Shown: positions 30,688-37,517 of the stretch, one piece after another | How the letters are laid out: each line of letters begins with the position of its first letter | Numbering within the stretch: the first letter of the stretch is position 1 | From: Burkholderiales bacterium | GTDB taxonomy: Bacteria; Pseudomonadota; Gammaproteobacteria; Burkholderiales; Burkholderiaceae_C | DNA: 45,864 nt | Reading direction: 5' to 3' | Assembly: GCA_016185015.1 (NCBI GenBank) | Contig: JACPOI010000027.1 | Location: 1 to 45,864, forward strand | Position numbers and translations under genes: made by a program | The notes under the pieces: model-generated | What the model was told of the DNA's origin: nothing | Databases searched by the model: none | Seen by the model: only the letters and a program-made list of their open reading frames with translations

Positions 30688-31056
30688 ATGAACACCAACC
30701 AACAGATCCCCGCCACCCAGAACGAAGCCTGGGGCTTCTGGGGCACGATGAACGAACACGCCAGCGCCGCGTGGCCTCTGGCGATGACCGCCATCTCAGA
30801 CGTCACCAGCCAGCCCCTCGAATCAGTCCTGGTCTTCCTCGACAGCCGCCACGGACGCCACTTTGCGGACGATGTGCAAAACGGGCTGTACGGGGGCCAG
30901 ACCCTGGCGGACGCGATCAACGCCGCCACCCAACGGTGGATGGGCTGGACGATTGGCCGCCAGACCAGCAAGCAGTACGGCATCCCGCGCGGCCTGCCTT
31001 ACCTGACGGGGTTCGTGATTCATTGCGAGATCGCGGAAGAGTCGCTCGCCGCCTGA
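30688..31056 (+). CDS. Small phage/ICE protein of unknown function
   Basis: This 122-aa protein starts at ATG 30688 with a clear CAAGGAG site. It has a Trp-rich N-terminus (NEAWGFWGTMNEHASAAWPL) and an LVFLDSRHGRHFADDVQNGL segment. I do not recognise a domain. It is the third member of the leader-linked array. Its last 37 bp overlap the 3' end of the convergent methyltransferase gene. Confidence 0.72.
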   Translation: MNTNQQIPATQNEAWGFWGTMNEHASAAWPLAMTAISDVTSQPLESVLVFLDSRHGRHFADDVQNGLYGGQTLADAINAATQRWMGWTIGRQTSKQYGIPRGLPYLTGFVIHCEIAEESLAA

Positions 31057-32291
31057 TCATCGAACAGCGCGCCATCCGACTCGCGGGTGGCTTGCTTACC
31101 AGTCCATTCCTGCCAGCGGCGCACGATCACGTCCGCATACTTCGGGTCGAGTTCGATCAGCCGTGCCAGTCGCCCTGACTTTTCGGCGGCGATCAGCGTC
31201 GTGCCAGAGCCCCCGAACGGGTCGAGCACCACGTTGCCAGGGCGGCTTGAATTGCGGATCGCGCGTTCGACCAACTCGACCGGCTTCATCGTCGGGTGCA
31301 GGTCGTTCTTCTGCGGTTTCTTGATGTTCCAGACGTCGCCCTGGTCGCGGTCACCGCACCAGTGACGCTGAGCGCCCTCGGGCCATCCGTACAGGATCGG
31401 CTCGTACTGGCGCTGGTAGTCGGCCCGGCCCAGCGTGAAGGTGTTCTTGGCCCAGATGATGAACGTCGACCACTTGCCACCGGCGGCGCGGAATGCGGCT
31501 TGCAGCACGTCGAGTTCGCTGGAAGACATCGCCACATAGATTCCGCCCCGGCAATGCGCGATGGTCGGCGTCAGCGCCGCCAGCAGGAAGTCGTAGAAGC
31601 CGTCGCCGAGGTTGTCGTTCAGGATCGCGCGATCCTTGCCGCGCATCTTGTCCTTGGCGCTGTTGGCGTAGTTCACGTTGTACGGCGGGTCGGTGAAGAC
31701 CATATCCACCGACTCGCCATCGAGAACCCGGTCGTAGCTCTCAGCCACGGTGGAGTCGCCACACAGCAGACGGTGGCCGCCGAGCAGCCAGACATCGCCT
31801 GGACGCGAAACCGGAGTCTCGCTGACCTCGGGTACCGCATCGTCATCGGTTTCGCCTTCGGCATCCGGCTCGTCGCCCGCCATCAACTCGGCGAGCGCAT
31901 CGGCATCGAAGCCGGTCAGCGACACGTCGAAGTCGTCGTCCTGGAGGGACGCGATCTCGATGCGCAGCATCGCGTCGTCCCAGCCCCCGTTCTCGGCGAT
32001 GCGGTTGTCCGCGATCACCAGTGCCCGGCGCTGCGTCGCGCTCAGATGATCGAGCACCACCACCGGCACCACCGCCATCCCGAGCTTCTGCGCAGCAGCA
32101 AGCCGTCCGTGACCGGCGACGATCACACCGTCGCTACCGGCGAGGATCGGGTTGGTGAATCCGAACTCGGCAATCGACGCAGCGATCTGCGCCACCTGAT
32201 CGTCCGAGTGGGTGCGCGCATTGCGGGCATAGGGCAGCAGCTTGGCGGTCGGCCACTGCTCGATCTTGTCGGCAAACCACGAGGCGGTCAT
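31020..32291 (-). CDS. ParB-N/DNA methyltransferase fusion, DPPY type (probable N6-adenine)
   Basis: This 423-aa protein starts at ATG 32291 in an ATGA overlap with the second methyltransferase gene. The N-terminal 120 residues are a ParB-like domain (YARNARTHSDDQVAQIAASI, then GHGRLAAAQKLG). The catalytic part has TDPPYNVNY near residue 200 and a C-terminal DPFGGSGTT SAM-binding motif, an order typical of beta-class methylases. DPPY suggests N6-adenine methylation. Such orphan enzymes often protect phage DNA from restriction. The last 37 bp overlap the convergent small gene. Confidence 0.9.
   Translation of the reverse strand: MTASWFADKIEQWPTAKLLPYARNARTHSDDQVAQIAASIAEFGFTNPILAGSDGVIVAGHGRLAAAQKLGMAVVPVVVLDHLSATQRRALVIADNRIAENGGWDDAMLRIEIASLQDDDFDVSLTGFDADALAELMAGDEPDAEGETDDDAVPEVSETPVSRPGDVWLLGGHRLLCGDSTVAESYDRVLDGESVDMVFTDPPYNVNYANSAKDKMRGKDRAILNDNLGDGFYDFLLAALTPTIAHCRGGIYVAMSSSELDVLQAAFRAAGGKWSTFIIWAKNTFTLGRADYQRQYEPILYGWPEGAQRHWCGDRDQGDVWNIKKPQKNDLHPTMKPVELVERAIRNSSRPGNVVLDPFGGSGTTLIAAEKSGRLARLIELDPKYADVIVRRWQEWTGKQATRESDGALFDDQAASDSSAISQ
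31062..31071 (+). repeat. Partial leader repeat (right half only)
   Basis: GAACAGCGCG, a 10-bp match to the right half of the three leaders, lies 6 bp after the third gene's stop and inside the 3' end of the methyltransferase gene. It could be a remnant of a fourth leader or chance. Confidence 0.35.
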
Positions 32292-33697
32292 TGCGCTACC
32301 TCCGTGGTGGCCAGACGTTCACTGGCGAGGTCATCGAAGGATTGGCCGGTGGCCAGCAGCGTGACGGGCACGCCTGGGTGGTTCTGCTGGAAGCGCTTGA
32401 TGGCGACGTCCACGTACTCCGGCGCGATCTCGACGCTGCGGCACACACGACCCGTGCGCTGCGCGGCCAGCATCGTCGTGCCGCTGCCGCCAAAGGGTTC
32501 AAACACGATGTCGCCGGTGTCCGTGTAGGCCTCGATGGCGAACTCCGGCAACGCCACCGGGAACACGGCCGGGTGGTCGATGTCCTGACCAATCTTGCCT
32601 TTGTGGCGCATCACGCGGATCACCGAGTCGGGAATCCGGGTGTCCTGCGTCGGCTGGCCCTTGTGCGTCCAGCCGCCGACCTCGCCGTCCTTGCCGCGCA
32701 TCGCCGTGGACGAGCCATCGGCGCGCAGATGCGATTCCTGTCCAGCGTGCTTGCAGGGCACGATCTTGTTGGGCTTGCGGCTGGCGCGGTTGAAGTGAAA
32801 CACGAACTCGAAGCTCGGGGCGAAGCGGCCCGCCCAGTCACCGGGCATCCCCGGTCCCTGATCCCAGACGTACCAAGCGAAGCGCCGCCAGCCCTGGGTG
32901 CGCATCCAGCCCAGCCACGCATCCCAATACGGGATGACTTCGTTGTCGCGGTGGATCAGCCCAAGGTTGACCAGCACCTGCCCGTCGTCGGTAATTGGCA
33001 CCTTGGCGAACACGCCGCGCATCAGGCCATCCCAATCGTTGATGCCACCGGAGGTGTAGTCGCGCTGGTTGCCGTAAGGCGGTGAGGTGAAGCACAGCCG
33101 GGCCGTATCGCCCTGCATCAGCGTGGCGACTGCTGTCGGGTCGGTGGCATCGCCACAGATCAGACGGTGGGAGCCGATGGCCCAGACATCGCCGGTGCGG
33201 GACACCGGCACCACAGGGGCATCCGGCACATCATCAGCAGCGTCCGGCTCGTCGGCATCTGCCTCCTGGTCGGCGTCATCGGTTTCCACCTCGTCAGCGA
33301 GCAAGGCCTCGATCTCGGCATCCTCGAAACCGGTCAACGCAAGGTCGTACCCGGCCTCGGACAGCTCGGCCATTTCCAGCGCCAGCATCTCCTCGTTCCA
33401 ACCGGCATCGAGCGCCAGCCGGTTGTCAGAGATGACGTAGGCGCGCTTCTGCGTGGGCGAGAGGTGCGCCAGTTCTATGACCGGCACCTGATCCTGCCCG
33501 AGCTTGCGCGCGGCGACCAGACGACCGTGGCCCGCAATGATCCCGTTGTCGCCGTCCACCAGCACCGGATTCGTCCAGCCGTACTCGACGATGCTGGCGG
33601 CGATCTTGGCCACCTGCTCGTCAGTGTGCGTGCGTGGATTGCGGGCGTAGGGGATCAGCGCCTCGACCTTGCGGTACTCGACGTTGAGCGTGTTCAG
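32288..33697 (-). CDS. ParB-N/DNA methyltransferase fusion, SPPY type (probable N4-cytosine)
   Basis: The N-terminal ParB-like domain (YARNPRTHTDEQVAKIAASI, GHGRLVAARKLG) is closely related to that of the downstream enzyme, but the catalytic motif is TSPPYGNQRDY, which is typical of N4-cytosine methylases; EPFGGSGTT lies near the C-terminus. No ATG, GTG or in-frame TTG occurs where homologous sequence begins. The best start is CTG 33697 (469 aa), 6 nt after GAGGAA, or ATT 33700. An ATG at 33793 would place a terminator hairpin inside the coding region. Confidence 0.85.
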   Translation of the reverse strand: MNTLNVEYRKVEALIPYARNPRTHTDEQVAKIAASIVEYGWTNPVLVDGDNGIIAGHGRLVAARKLGQDQVPVIELAHLSPTQKRAYVISDNRLALDAGWNEEMLALEMAELSEAGYDLALTGFEDAEIEALLADEVETDDADQEADADEPDAADDVPDAPVVPVSRTGDVWAIGSHRLICGDATDPTAVATLMQGDTARLCFTSPPYGNQRDYTSGGINDWDGLMRGVFAKVPITDDGQVLVNLGLIHRDNEVIPYWDAWLGWMRTQGWRRFAWYVWDQGPGMPGDWAGRFAPSFEFVFHFNRASRKPNKIVPCKHAGQESHLRADGSSTAMRGKDGEVGGWTHKGQPTQDTRIPDSVIRVMRHKGKIGQDIDHPAVFPVALPEFAIEAYTDTGDIVFEPFGGSGTTMLAAQRTGRVCRSVEIAPEYVDVAIKRFQQNHPGVPVTLLATGQSFDDLASERLATTEVAQ

Positions 33698-33709
33698 AAT
33701 CGGTTCCTC

Positions 33710-33746
33710 AAAAAGAAAACCCGCCGACGGAAGACCGTGGGCGGGC
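33710..33746 (-). terminator. Rho-independent terminator just upstream of the methyltransferase start
   Basis: On the minus strand a CCCGCC/GGCGGG stem (6 bp), one mismatch and an inner ACGG/CCGT stem close a TCTT loop, followed by TTTTCTTTTT. The T tract ends right before the GAGGAA ribosome site of the methyltransferase gene. Confidence 0.8.
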
Positions 33747-33773
33747 TCGTGATGGGTGCGGACTGGGGTGGGT

Positions 33774-33807
33774 GCAAACTGCAAACCCTGCAAACCTTGG
33801 TTTGCAG
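33774..33807. promoter_or_regulatory. TGCAAAC repeat cluster with inverted copy
   Basis: GCAAAC occurs at 33774, 33781 and 33790; CTGCAAACC is tandemly repeated at 33779-33787 and 33788-33796, and its exact inverse GGTTTGCAG follows at 33799-33807. The spacing and symmetry suggest an operator or iteron upstream of the methyltransferase genes. Confidence 0.6.
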
Positions 33808-34632: not shown

Positions 34633-35097
34633 TCACACCTCCTGCGTCTCGACTGCCCAGTGCAGCAGGGCCAGCGCGTCGGCTTCGTTGTCGTCGACTG
34701 GGGTGTGACCACGCTCGCGGACGGACGTGATCATTTCGTCCTTGCTCGCATTGCCCTTGCCGGTCGCGTGCTTCTTGATCGTGCCGACCGGAACGCCCTG
34801 GTAGGGGATGTTGTGATGTTCACACCACGCAGTCAGGTGCCCCATGAATCCGCCGTAGGCGTGCGCTGCATCAACGCCAGCGTGCCTCCGAACTTCCTCG
34901 AAGAACACCGCGTTAATGTGATTGCTGACCGACAGCAGTTCGTTGAGCCAGCGCTTGAATCGAAGGAAGCGCATTCCGCCGCCTTCAAATCGCTGCGGCT
35001 TGAAGTGCTCCGTGCCGCTGGTGATGGTGCCGTCCAGGTGCTGCAGAGCCCACCCGGTGTGTGTGCCCAGATCGAGGGCGAGGATCGTCGTGTTCAT
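34633..35097 (-). CDS. RuvC-like Holliday junction resolvase
   Basis: I choose ATG 35097 (154 aa), with GGAG 8 nt upstream. The RuvC fold is clear: LALDLGTHTGWAL (D9), FFEEV (E67/E68) and DNEADALALL (D136, D140). It would cut four-way junctions during phage recombination or before packaging. It lies directly downstream of a large palindrome that could extrude a cruciform. High confidence in fold. Confidence 0.85.
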   Translation of the reverse strand: MNTTILALDLGTHTGWALQHLDGTITSGTEHFKPQRFEGGGMRFLRFKRWLNELLSVSNHINAVFFEEVRRHAGVDAAHAYGGFMGHLTAWCEHHNIPYQGVPVGTIKKHATGKGNASKDEMITSVRERGHTPVDDNEADALALLHWAVETQEV

Positions 35098-35118
35098 CGT
35101 CTTTACTCCGTGTTGGGT

Positions 35119-35218
35119 GGGCAAGTGACGGATGCGACGGGTTGTCCGGACAACGTCCTTTACGTGCGCGCACGTGTAGCGCGTCAAACAGGAAACCCGT
35201 CAAATCCGTCACTCGCCC
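35119..35218. repeat. 100-bp nested palindrome between primase and resolvase genes
   Basis: Arms 35119-35143 and 35194-35218 are inverted with 22 of 25 matches. Their common centre (35168.5) is also the exact centre of a perfect 14-bp palindrome, ACGTGCGCGCACGT (35162-35175). A second perfect palindrome, GTTGTCCGGACAAC (35141-35154), lies 21 bp to the left, about two helical turns. This is the most symmetric sequence in the window. Origin, cruciform or composite operator are possible roles. Confidence 0.8.
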
Positions 35219-35225
35219 GGATTGG

Positions 35226-37517
35226 TCAGTCATCGCGGTAGGGGTAGGCGTGGCTGTACGGCTTGGGCCTGAGGGCGATGCCCGCGATGGCGCGAGCCCC
35301 TCCGGTCAGCCGACACTTCTCGAACTTGCGAGTCGCCATCAGCTCCGAGAAGCGCTTGACCGAGCCCACGTACTCGCCCGCGCGCTCGGCCCATTCGCGC
35401 CAGTCGGCGAACAGTTCGGAGACGCCTTCGCGGTGGGACTTGGCCAGCAGACAGCGTTCTTCGATCCACTGCCCGAGCGCATCCTCGGCCTCGAAATACT
35501 CCTCGGTCGCCGACACCACGCTGGCGGGCGGCTTCAAGCCCTGGCGTTGCCACAGGCTGCAGCCCGCGACCGCCCACGCCAGAATCCCATCGCGCTCCTT
35601 GAGCAGCTTCTCGGTCAGCCTGCCGTCGCGGCGCTCGGGCGGGATCGTCACCGTGAACGGGATCAGGTGAAGTCGGCGCTTCATCGCCTCGTCGACATTG
35701 CGGATCGACGGCTTGTGATTGCCCGCGATCACCAACTTGAATTGCGGCAGGTACTCGAAGAAGTCCTGGCGCATGAAGCGAGCGGACACCTTGTCACCAC
35801 CGGTGATGGCCTTGACCTTGGACTCGTTCCAGCGCCGCCCTTGCTCGGTTTCGATGGATGACACGAAGCGTGCGCCGCGCAGCCCTGCGAGATCGGTCGG
35901 GTGCCGGTCGTTGCGCGCCTCCATGAACGTGTCCATCGGCGCGTTGGCCGCGTAGTCGCCCAGGATGGTGGTCAGCACGTTGACGAACACCGACTTGCCG
36001 TTCGCGCCTGTGCCGTACAAGAAGAACAGCGCGTGTTCGCTGGTGACGCCCGTCAGGCAGTAGCCAACCATCAGTTGCAGGTAGGCCATCAGATCGACGT
36101 CGCCACCGGTGACATCCGTGAGGAAGGCTCGCCACGTCGGGCAGGCGCTGTCCGGATTGCCCTGCGGCGTGGCCGTGGTCACCTTGGTCATGCGGTCATC
36201 GCGCCGGTGCGGGCGCATCCGGCCCGTGCGCAGATCGACCACGCCACCGGGGGTGTTCAGCGCCCAGACATCGGCGTCCCATTCCTCGGCGGTGGATGCG
36301 TGCTTCGGGTCAGAGCGCGCGATCTTTTCAACCGACGAGATCGTGGCGGAACTGGCCAGCTTGCCCTTGAGCCTCGGCGTGTCCGCTTTCAGCGAGGCGT
36401 TGCGGCAGATGCCCCTGGAGAGATGCGACACGTAGAGCACCTGATCGGGATTCCAGCGCACACCCGTCCATACCAGCCACTTGCCCCACAGGGCACAGTA
36501 GCGCCAGTCTTCGCCATAGCGGCGGGTGAAAGCGCTGGACAGGCCATCCTCGGTCGTCCAATCAATGCCCGTCAGCAAGTCTGGCGAAGGTGCTTCCTCC
36601 ACCGAGCGCATCACCGGCATCCGCTCGCCGACGGCCAGAAAGCCACCGACATCGAAGCCTTCGGGAATGGCGTCGGCGGCGTCCCACCCCTCCGGCTTGT
36701 CGTCGGGCGGCATGAGGATGGCGACCGAGGTCGCACCTGCGTGCAAGATCGCTTGCGAAGCCCGGTCGGCATAGTCCCACCCCGGCGCATCGCGGTCGGG
36801 CCAGATCAGAACCGTTTTGCCAGCCAGTGGTGACCAGTCGGTCTTGTCGACCGGGGCATTGGCACCGTGCATAGCCGTGGTGGCCACCACACCGCTGACG
36901 ATCAATGCCTGCGCGCACTTCTCGCCCTCGACCAGGACAATGTGGCTTGCCGCAGCAAGGCCGGGCTGGTTGAACAGCGGGCGCGGCTCAGGCGGGGCCA
37001 TCTTGCGGCGCTTGGCGTCCCACGGTCGGAATTCCTTCTTGCCACCCGGTGGGTCATAGCGGTAGACGACGGCGATCAGCTTCCCAACGGCATCGAAGTA
37101 GTCCCACTTCGCCGTGGCCGGGCCGAGGTCGTCGACCGGCACTTCCTTCGTCGCGTTGCGCACCGGCACCGACCGCGAACGCCCGAGCAGGTCAGCAGCG
37201 GCGTCCAGCACGCGGGGAAAGTCGCTGTGAACGTTGATGCCGCAGTAGCCGCCGATCAGCGCATAGATGTCGCCGCCTGAGTTGTCGGCACGATCCGTCC
37301 ACAGACCGGCCTTCTCACCTTCGAGCACCACCTCGAGGCTGTCACCTGGACTGCCGAGGATGTCGCCGATCAGGAACTTGCCACGGCGCTTCTTGCCAGC
37401 CGGAAACATCGTGGTCAGCACCGACTCTAGTCGCGCCAGCAGATCGGCGCGAATCTCGTCTCGTTCAGATTCCCTGTTGTGCTCCGCAGATTGGGTTGTG
37501 TCGTTGAAGTCGATCAT
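35226..37517 (-). CDS. P4-type primase-helicase (Toprim-like plus SF3 helicase)
   Basis: This 763-aa protein starts at ATG 37517 in an ATGA overlap. A Toprim-like segment (VLVEGEKCAQAL near residue 195, IWPDRDAPGWDYADR near 238) precedes a D5_N-type region and the SF3 helicase, with Walker A GTGANGKS at about 502-509 and KARNDRHPTDLAGLRGARF-like motifs after it. It initiates and unwinds phage DNA. A Cys/Trp-containing zinc finger is not evident. High confidence in the general role. Confidence 0.9.
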   Translation of the reverse strand: MIDFNDTTQSAEHNRESERDEIRADLLARLESVLTTMFPAGKKRRGKFLIGDILGSPGDSLEVVLEGEKAGLWTDRADNSGGDIYALIGGYCGINVHSDFPRVLDAAADLLGRSRSVPVRNATKEVPVDDLGPATAKWDYFDAVGKLIAVVYRYDPPGGKKEFRPWDAKRRKMAPPEPRPLFNQPGLAAASHIVLVEGEKCAQALIVSGVVATTAMHGANAPVDKTDWSPLAGKTVLIWPDRDAPGWDYADRASQAILHAGATSVAILMPPDDKPEGWDAADAIPEGFDVGGFLAVGERMPVMRSVEEAPSPDLLTGIDWTTEDGLSSAFTRRYGEDWRYCALWGKWLVWTGVRWNPDQVLYVSHLSRGICRNASLKADTPRLKGKLASSATISSVEKIARSDPKHASTAEEWDADVWALNTPGGVVDLRTGRMRPHRRDDRMTKVTTATPQGNPDSACPTWRAFLTDVTGGDVDLMAYLQLMVGYCLTGVTSEHALFFLYGTGANGKSVFVNVLTTILGDYAANAPMDTFMEARNDRHPTDLAGLRGARFVSSIETEQGRRWNESKVKAITGGDKVSARFMRQDFFEYLPQFKLVIAGNHKPSIRNVDEAMKRRLHLIPFTVTIPPERRDGRLTEKLLKERDGILAWAVAGCSLWQRQGLKPPASVVSATEEYFEAEDALGQWIEERCLLAKSHREGVSELFADWREWAERAGEYVGSVKRFSELMATRKFEKCRLTGGARAIAGIALRPKPYSHAYPYRDD

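Follow-up and report, generated by a model that had tools for sequence, protein, structure and literature searches.

A putative phage replication origin with inverted iterons and an alternating core, and the matching residue-base pair in its candidate initiator

The window analysed here is a stretch of 45,864 nucleotides from a Burkholderiales bacterium (NCBI GenBank assembly GCA_016185015.1, contig JACPOI010000027.1, positions 1 to 45,864), which encodes phage terminase, portal, protease, tape-measure, and tail genes, and therefore holds a prophage or a phage. A dyad of 100 bp lies in the gap between the genes of a primase-helicase and a RuvC-like resolvase, and comparison with its relatives indicates that it is, with a probability of roughly 0.84, a phage replication origin, bound by the phage's own primase-helicase as the initiator. 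The arms of the dyad are made up of short tandem repeats (iterons), which vary in step with the C-terminal domain of the primase-helicase, and one residue of this domain, 721, is matched to one base of the iteron. The features of the element and its neighbours are listed below, with all coordinates referring to the whole window, on the forward strand.

35098..35225 (128 bp), minus strand: intergenic gap from the primase stop to the RuvC-like start, the putative origin
35194..35218, minus strand: outer arm adjoining the primase gene, matched with the other arm at 22/25 positions
35119..35143, plus strand: outer arm adjoining the RuvC-like gene, with the same 22/25 match
35205..35211, minus strand: iteron 1, TGACGGA, in which base 6 is G
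35196..35202, minus strand: iteron 2, TGACGGG, 9 bp on from iteron 1
35126..35132, plus strand: iteron 1', TGACGGA, the inverted copy
35135..35141, plus strand: iteron 2', CGACGGG, 9 bp on from iteron 1'
35161..35178, no strand: core of 18 bp in strict purine/pyrimidine alternation, the sole such run of at least 14 bp in the window
35141..35154, no strand: second perfect palindrome, GTTGTCCGGACAAC, present in 2/118 gaps and not conserved
35226..37517, minus strand: primase-helicase, with a TOPRIM fold (residues ~126-306), D5_N (328-470), an SF3/D5-type helicase (~410-660), and then the C-terminal domain
35229..35537, minus strand: C-terminal domain (residues 661-763), a putative iteron-binding winged helix, proposed from arm co-variation and the predicted fold
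35355..35357, minus strand: codon of Lys721, at the start of the predicted recognition helix (720-729)
34633..35097, minus strand: RuvC-like resolvase (phrog_159 match, 5e-36)

An earlier, sequence-only reading of this stretch had described a nested palindrome with a perfect 14-bp core at its exact centre, with a symmetry beyond what chance would provide, and the description holds. The inverse match of the arms was recounted at the same value, their midpoint (35168.5) is shared with that of ACGTGCGCGCACGT (35162-35175), the centre of GTTGTCCGGACAAC lies 21 bp to the left of the dyad centre, and the flanking genes are indeed those of a D5_N/SF3 primase-helicase and a RuvC-like protein. In an ungapped scan of spans of up to 170 bp, the dyad is the strongest inverted repeat of the window, with a score of 17.5, followed by two at 12.0, while the best scores in three triplet-shuffled windows are 12.0-13.0. 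A repeat search extends the dyad to two arms of 50 nt, which are 72% complementary, and both the gap as RNA (z -6.7) and the 100-bp dyad as single-stranded DNA (z -6.1) fold far better than shuffles. Each arm carries two tandem iterons, and those of both arms face inward around the core. The iteron pair pattern has no other good match in the window, where three looser matches, each with 3 mismatches, are at about the level of chance, and the gap sequence, used as a query on its own genome, recovered no match besides the gap itself.

The comparison is based on 161 relatives (L003-L163), made up of the best 80 loci from viral contigs, the best 80 from bacterial genomes, and AcaML1 from the phage collection. 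In addition to the window, 148 of these were kept, in which the primase is matched to its end, a RuvC-like gene lies behind it, and the gap is 60-300 bp long. A RuvC match was required for keeping a locus, so these 148 are uninformative on the frequency of the RuvC-like gene, the start of which was extrapolated in the relatives from the tblastn match. The loci dropped are four in which the primase match stops short of the end, seven cut off before the RuvC match, L015, and L111. Three of the cut contigs were inspected (L013, L036, and L153), and still carry the dyad, while L111 has a gap of 434 bp with an extra reading frame, and retains the outer GGTGACAG/CTGTCACC pair. In L015, an assembly gap (NN) is found near position 2880, inside the dyad, in a gap of 53 bp, which hints that dyads of this kind may interrupt an assembly.

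Primase identity across the relatives is 66-99%, and the gaps of those that were kept are 114-243 bp long. The window and all 148 kept relatives have the dyad behind the primase stop, and among them are the 118 distinct gaps, the window's included, on which most of the counts below are based. The architecture is constant across these 118 gaps, with two tandem iterons of 9-10 bp on each side, directed inward, and an alternating core, while the letters of the arms vary by group (for example, TGACGGATTTGACGGG, TGACGCAGCTGACGCA, GGTGACCGAAGGTGACC, and GGTGACAGATGGTGACAGG). The span of the dyad has a median of 100 bp and a range of 87-163 bp, and the best inverted repeat exceeds all 2,360 shuffles (maximum 12) in 105 of the gaps, and the 99th percentile of the shuffles (9.5) in 115. 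The sequence-only reading had suggested looking for compensatory change in homologous gaps, with free drift of both arms as the refuting outcome; the two arms were found to change in concert, and free drift was not seen.

The source of this variation was sought in Mantel-type distance correlations on 117 loci, in which the permutation leaves kinship in. Arm distance is correlated with the distance of the primase C-terminal domain at r 0.85, with that of primase residues 1-640 at r 0.48, and with that of RuvC at r 0.56. The partial correlation with the C-terminal domain, given residues 1-640, is 0.80 (0/999 permutations as high), and given the C-terminus, that of the arms is -0.03 with residues 1-640 (817/999 as high) and 0.07 with RuvC (66/999 as high). 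When the protein is divided into segments of 20 residues, the signal runs from 661-676 onward, and peaks at 721-740, in a run in which four loci (L004, L122, L138, and L146) were misanchored. By part of the DNA, the arms have partial correlations with the C-terminal domain of 0.83 and 0.74, compared with 0.11 and 0.39 in the linkers and 0.23 in the core; the linkers are short and change fast, which makes them a good, imperfect control. The core tracks residues 1-640, with a partial correlation of 0.55 given the C-terminus, which may represent background kinship or a contact with the helicase/primase part of the protein. These comparisons of sequences point to the primase-helicase C-terminal domain as the most likely reader of the arms.

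Residue 721 sits in the string G-S-x-[KR]-R-F, and the two alternatives at this position are associated with two different bases of the iteron. Among the 118 gaps, iteron base 6 is G on both sides of the dyad in all 74 loci with KRF, and C in all 34 with RRF. Residue 721 is the sole perfect column of the 763 among these 108 loci, the next best reaching 0.944, and the best 25 primase columns are all found at residue 683 or beyond, while RuvC has no column above 0.83. The inner iterons follow the rule less closely, as all four sites agree, by simple register, in 65/74 of the KRF loci and 18/34 of the RRF loci, in part because some of the iteron periods are of 10. On the tree built from residues 1-640, the residue changes 12 times and the base 12 times, and all 12 changes are joint; the nine supported independent pairs on this tree all agree (9/9, p 0.0039). 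A fresh test was based on 208 loci from three more scans, of which 104 were duplicates, seven were too short, and three were unscored, leaving 94 scored loci, which belong to the same family and represent new data, not independent descent. The residue-721/base-6 rule fits 91 of these 94.

Both the TOPRIM primase domain and the SF3/D5 helicase domain are present in the window's primase-helicase, and in the full-length model, the C-terminal domain has the H-E-H-H-E-E order of a winged helix, with moderate confidence, in a model that is weak overall (predicted local distance difference test score, pLDDT, 60; predicted template modelling score, pTM, 0.33). When the sequence of this domain was compared with those of the PDB, two guanylate kinase sequences were recovered at E 1.5, and nothing else.

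A similar arrangement is found in more distant phages. The phage records with a related primase number 1,184, and the region behind the gene was inspected in ten of these beyond AcaML1, with the iterons being called by eye. Inverted groups of tandem iterons were found in seven, with best inverted-repeat scores of 20.5 in Milly, 20.0 in Aminay, 19.0 in Amelie, 12.0 in A2, 17.5 in phiEG37K, 15.5 in Mae-JY28, which also has an alternating run of 14 bp between the arms, and 28.0 in Blf4. For the Lactobacillus phage A2 (AJ251789), the record, on which the account of its origin is based here, carries a rep_origin annotation (32208-32717) that starts at the 3' terminus of the gene for the primase. 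Like the window, A2 has a homologous primase C-terminal domain and iterons in inverted groups, but these are ACGGGAGGAT iterons, and the middle is longer and AT-rich.

A number of observations weigh against the reading of the dyad as an origin recognised through residue 721. Ten loci with an RWL helix lie outside the code, with G/G in eight, G/C in one, and A/G in one, and L240 and L374, in the fresh test, break the code by combining KRF with C, while the third non-fitting locus, L203, is apparently mis-registered. On a tree of the C-terminal domain, with column 721 removed, there are only five residue changes, five base changes, and five joint changes, with one well-supported pair, and many of the 12 joint changes are therefore probably transfers of the whole C-terminal domain together with its arms. 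When this domain was modelled alone, it was all-helical (pLDDT 63), with the loss of the winged-helix order, and this domain-only model had no PDB match by Foldseek at E of 0.001 or less. Among the ten distant phages, no iteron dyad was found behind the primase in three, Tbone (9.5), Bernstein (14.0, its best inverted repeat falling within the next gene), and Attoomi (12.0); the best single inverted repeat of A2, at 12.0, does not exceed the strongest shuffle of the family's gaps; and Milly, Aminay, and Blf4 each have an annotated gene that overlaps with the dyad. An origin alone needs no nuclease, and an unrelated junction-resolving nuclease lies at most three genes behind the dyad in four of the seven distant iteron phages: RusA in Amelie (next gene), a small protein with a PHROG match to 'Holliday junction resolvase', without an accompanying Pfam match, in phiEG37K (next), RusA in Milly (second), and endonuclease VII in Aminay (third). 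The analysis of GC skew, which had been proposed as a check, places the sign change ~4 kb before the dyad, not at the dyad, over the window, AcaML1, and 79 genome loci (81 in all), with 60-81 values in each 1-kb bin except the last of the twelve, which has one. GC skew was set aside as support for an origin, and its sign change may reflect gene content.

The sequence-only reading had also put forward a composite operator and a cruciform recognised by the resolvase, and both kinds of function were considered here. As an operator, the arms would be bound by the primase C-terminal domain, or by a repressor, to control the resolvase and the genes behind it, with no start of replication. The RuvC-like gene does lie downstream of the dyad in the direction of transcription, and tandem inverted iterons would suit an operator equally well, but the arms vary with the C-terminal domain of the initiator itself, a search of 34900-35400 for sigma-70-like promoters, the one type covered, had no hit, and the same position in A2 is annotated as rep_origin. 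An operator of this kind is thus unlikely as the sole function, while a composite operator may represent a second role beside the origin. As a cruciform, a reading which we regard as distinctly improbable, the dyad would be extruded and become the target of the RuvC-like resolvase, being nicked, for example, to begin recombination-dependent replication. The dyad could extrude, the RuvC-like gene adjoins it, and D9, E67/E68, D136, and D140, presumably the catalytic acidic residues, are invariant in the seven proteins compared; the nucleases of the four distant phages point in the same direction. The arms, however, do not track RuvC when the primase C-terminus is allowed for (partial correlation 0.07), and in L114, in a pairing made before the four anchors were corrected, a RuvC-like protein 99% identical to that of the window is found with other arms, which speaks against the resolvase as a reader of sequence, though a role in which it reads structure is conceivable. 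None of the seven distant phages has a RuvC-like gene among the neighbours inspected, no resolvase was found in A2 or Blf4, in the one and two following genes scanned, respectively, and Mae-JY28 has no annotated gene behind the dyad within the stretch examined. A cruciform target would also have no need of tandem iterons in each arm, and would leave the match between the primase residue and the base unexplained. The recurrence of a resolvase near the origin speaks for a functional link between the origin and the resolution of junctions, rather than for RuvC reading the arms, and one kind of resolvase has perhaps been replaced by another at the same place in the four distant phages (L166, L167, L168, and L172).

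Two further explanations concern the symmetry itself. A long hairpin in the primase-resolvase mRNA, acting as an attenuator, terminator, or processing site, would account for the strong RNA fold of the gap (z -6.7), but no terminator-like site was found, and nothing in Rfam reaches the gathering score (two microRNA families have 25.7 and 17.6 bits, against cut-offs of 78 and 51, and are taken as chance), and RNA pairing leaves the match between amino acid and base unexplained. The mismatches of the arms show no clear G-U bias either, with 27 distinct G-T contexts vs 21 A-C; the ratio of 97:55 over every gap, which was considered as a signal of RNA, consists mostly of one shared position repeated, and was rejected. 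The hairpin is, overall, very unlikely. The sites of protelomerases are palindromic, with an alternating core, as is the dyad, and a site of telomere resolution or site-specific recombination might be envisaged on this basis, but the halves of the dyad are 72%, not fully, symmetric, and none of the scanned proteins of the window, which cover part of the open reading frames, was identified as such an enzyme, so this explanation is scarcely credible. The proposal of a phage replication origin is the part of the sequence-only reading that is supported by comparison, through the co-variation of the iteron pairs with the initiator's C-terminus and the rep_origin of A2 at the same position.

In the reading of the dyad as an origin, the C-terminal winged helix would bind the iterons, and the inverted iteron pairs would serve to load a pair of SF3 helicase rings, face to face. 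The duplex would be deformed or melted at the core, with the rings unwinding it outward, and primers would be supplied by the protein's own TOPRIM domain. The RuvC-like resolvase would be a neighbouring recombination or replication gene, rather than a reader of the arm sequence. The steps of binding, two-ring loading, core melting, and priming are suggested by analogy with the P4 alpha protein (PMC4234260), the Rep protein of the Staphylococcus pathogenicity islands (SaPI; PMC7581432), and pRN1 (PMC4234260).

Origins of such a kind are already known, and the comparison with these systems reveals both likenesses and differences. SaPI Rep, including SaPI5 Rep, is described in PMC7581432 as the self-loading initiator of the island's ori, and compared with this description, the window differs in its TOPRIM (DnaG-like) primase domain, its palindrome with two iterons per side, and its GC-rich alternating core. 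P4 alpha, like the window's protein, combines a primase, of the TOPRIM type according to PMC4234260, with an SF3-type helicase. As a close homologue, P4 alpha was rejected, given that the helicase part alone aligns, and the C-terminal domain has no sequence similarity. The crr of P4 lies directly behind the alpha gene, as the dyad does behind the primase gene, and within each of its 120-bp repeats, two type-1 repeats stand in tandem at a spacing of 9 bp and two more are inverted, but a fifth type-1 repeat faces back, the GGTGA strings are directed outward, not inward, and P4 has a separate annotated rep_origin elsewhere, with more repeats. In pRN1, a stem-loop of ~100 bp, 3' of the gene for a protein with a primase, an SF3 helicase, and a winged helix, is needed for replication, and such a stem-loop 3' of the primase-helicase gene is shared by pRN1-type plasmids and the Bordetella phage BIP-1/BPP-1; here, in contrast with the window, the primase is archaeo-eukaryotic instead of TOPRIM, and the authors report no iteron structure in pRN1 (PMC4234260). 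In BPP-1, a weak dyad of 98 bp was found at the end of the gene, with a score of 10.5. The origin of simian virus 40 (SV40) has two inverted pairs of short sites, on which the large T antigen, an SF3 helicase, forms a double hexamer, but the DNA-binding domain of this protein is unrelated, and N-terminal to the helicase. What appears to be new is the palindrome with its alternating core and the residue-base rule; no paper on this origin, the code, or the core was found in the literature searched, which was judged from titles and the starts of abstracts, with subscription papers mostly out of reach.

The alternating core is conserved as a pattern. The longest alternating run is 8-25 bp long (median 20) in the 118 distinct gaps, with 68 different strings, and is always placed near the middle, at 0.44 +/- 0.03 of the length of the gap. 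A run of at least 12 bp is found in 112 of these gaps, vs 5% of dinucleotide-preserving shuffles of the same short gaps, and in all 94 of the further scored loci. The core lies inside the arms in all 118 gaps, at most 2 bp from the dyad centre in 65, and a perfect core palindrome of at least 14 bp is found in 25, including the window. The base-exact centring of the perfect 14-bp palindrome in the window is, on this comparison, a local, non-conserved detail. A tentative proposal, to which we would give somewhat less than even odds, is that selection on the core maintains strict alternation of purines and pyrimidines, a pattern rather than a sequence, and that the core is possibly a Z-DNA-forming or easily untwisted element, which would replace the AT-rich unwinding element between the inward-facing helicase rings.

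In the window, two neighbouring genes on the minus strand (31020-32291 and 32288-33793) each encode a ParB-like N-terminal part and an N6/N4 DNA methyltransferase, and the neighbouring genes gp24 and gp25 of AcaML1 are annotated as DNA modification methylase. In L114, the RuvC-like gene is 99% identical to that of the window, but the primase is 72% identical. In L119, a window-like helicase end is joined, as judged by eye, to another C-terminal domain. The sequences of L114, L119, and others indicate that the replication modules recombine.

The origins of phages are difficult to locate by sequence alone, and this group of phages, most of which come from proteobacterial genomes, provides a candidate origin that can be recognised, the domain most likely to read it, and a pairing of one residue with one base that is open to testing with natural variants. 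The finding raises the question of why a GC-rich alternating core, and not an AT-rich stretch, sits where the unwinding should start. If the proposal for the core is true, alternation and the residue-721/base-6 code together would make the pairing of phage initiators with their origins predictable. The group would also show how initiators and origins evolve in step as the replication modules recombine.
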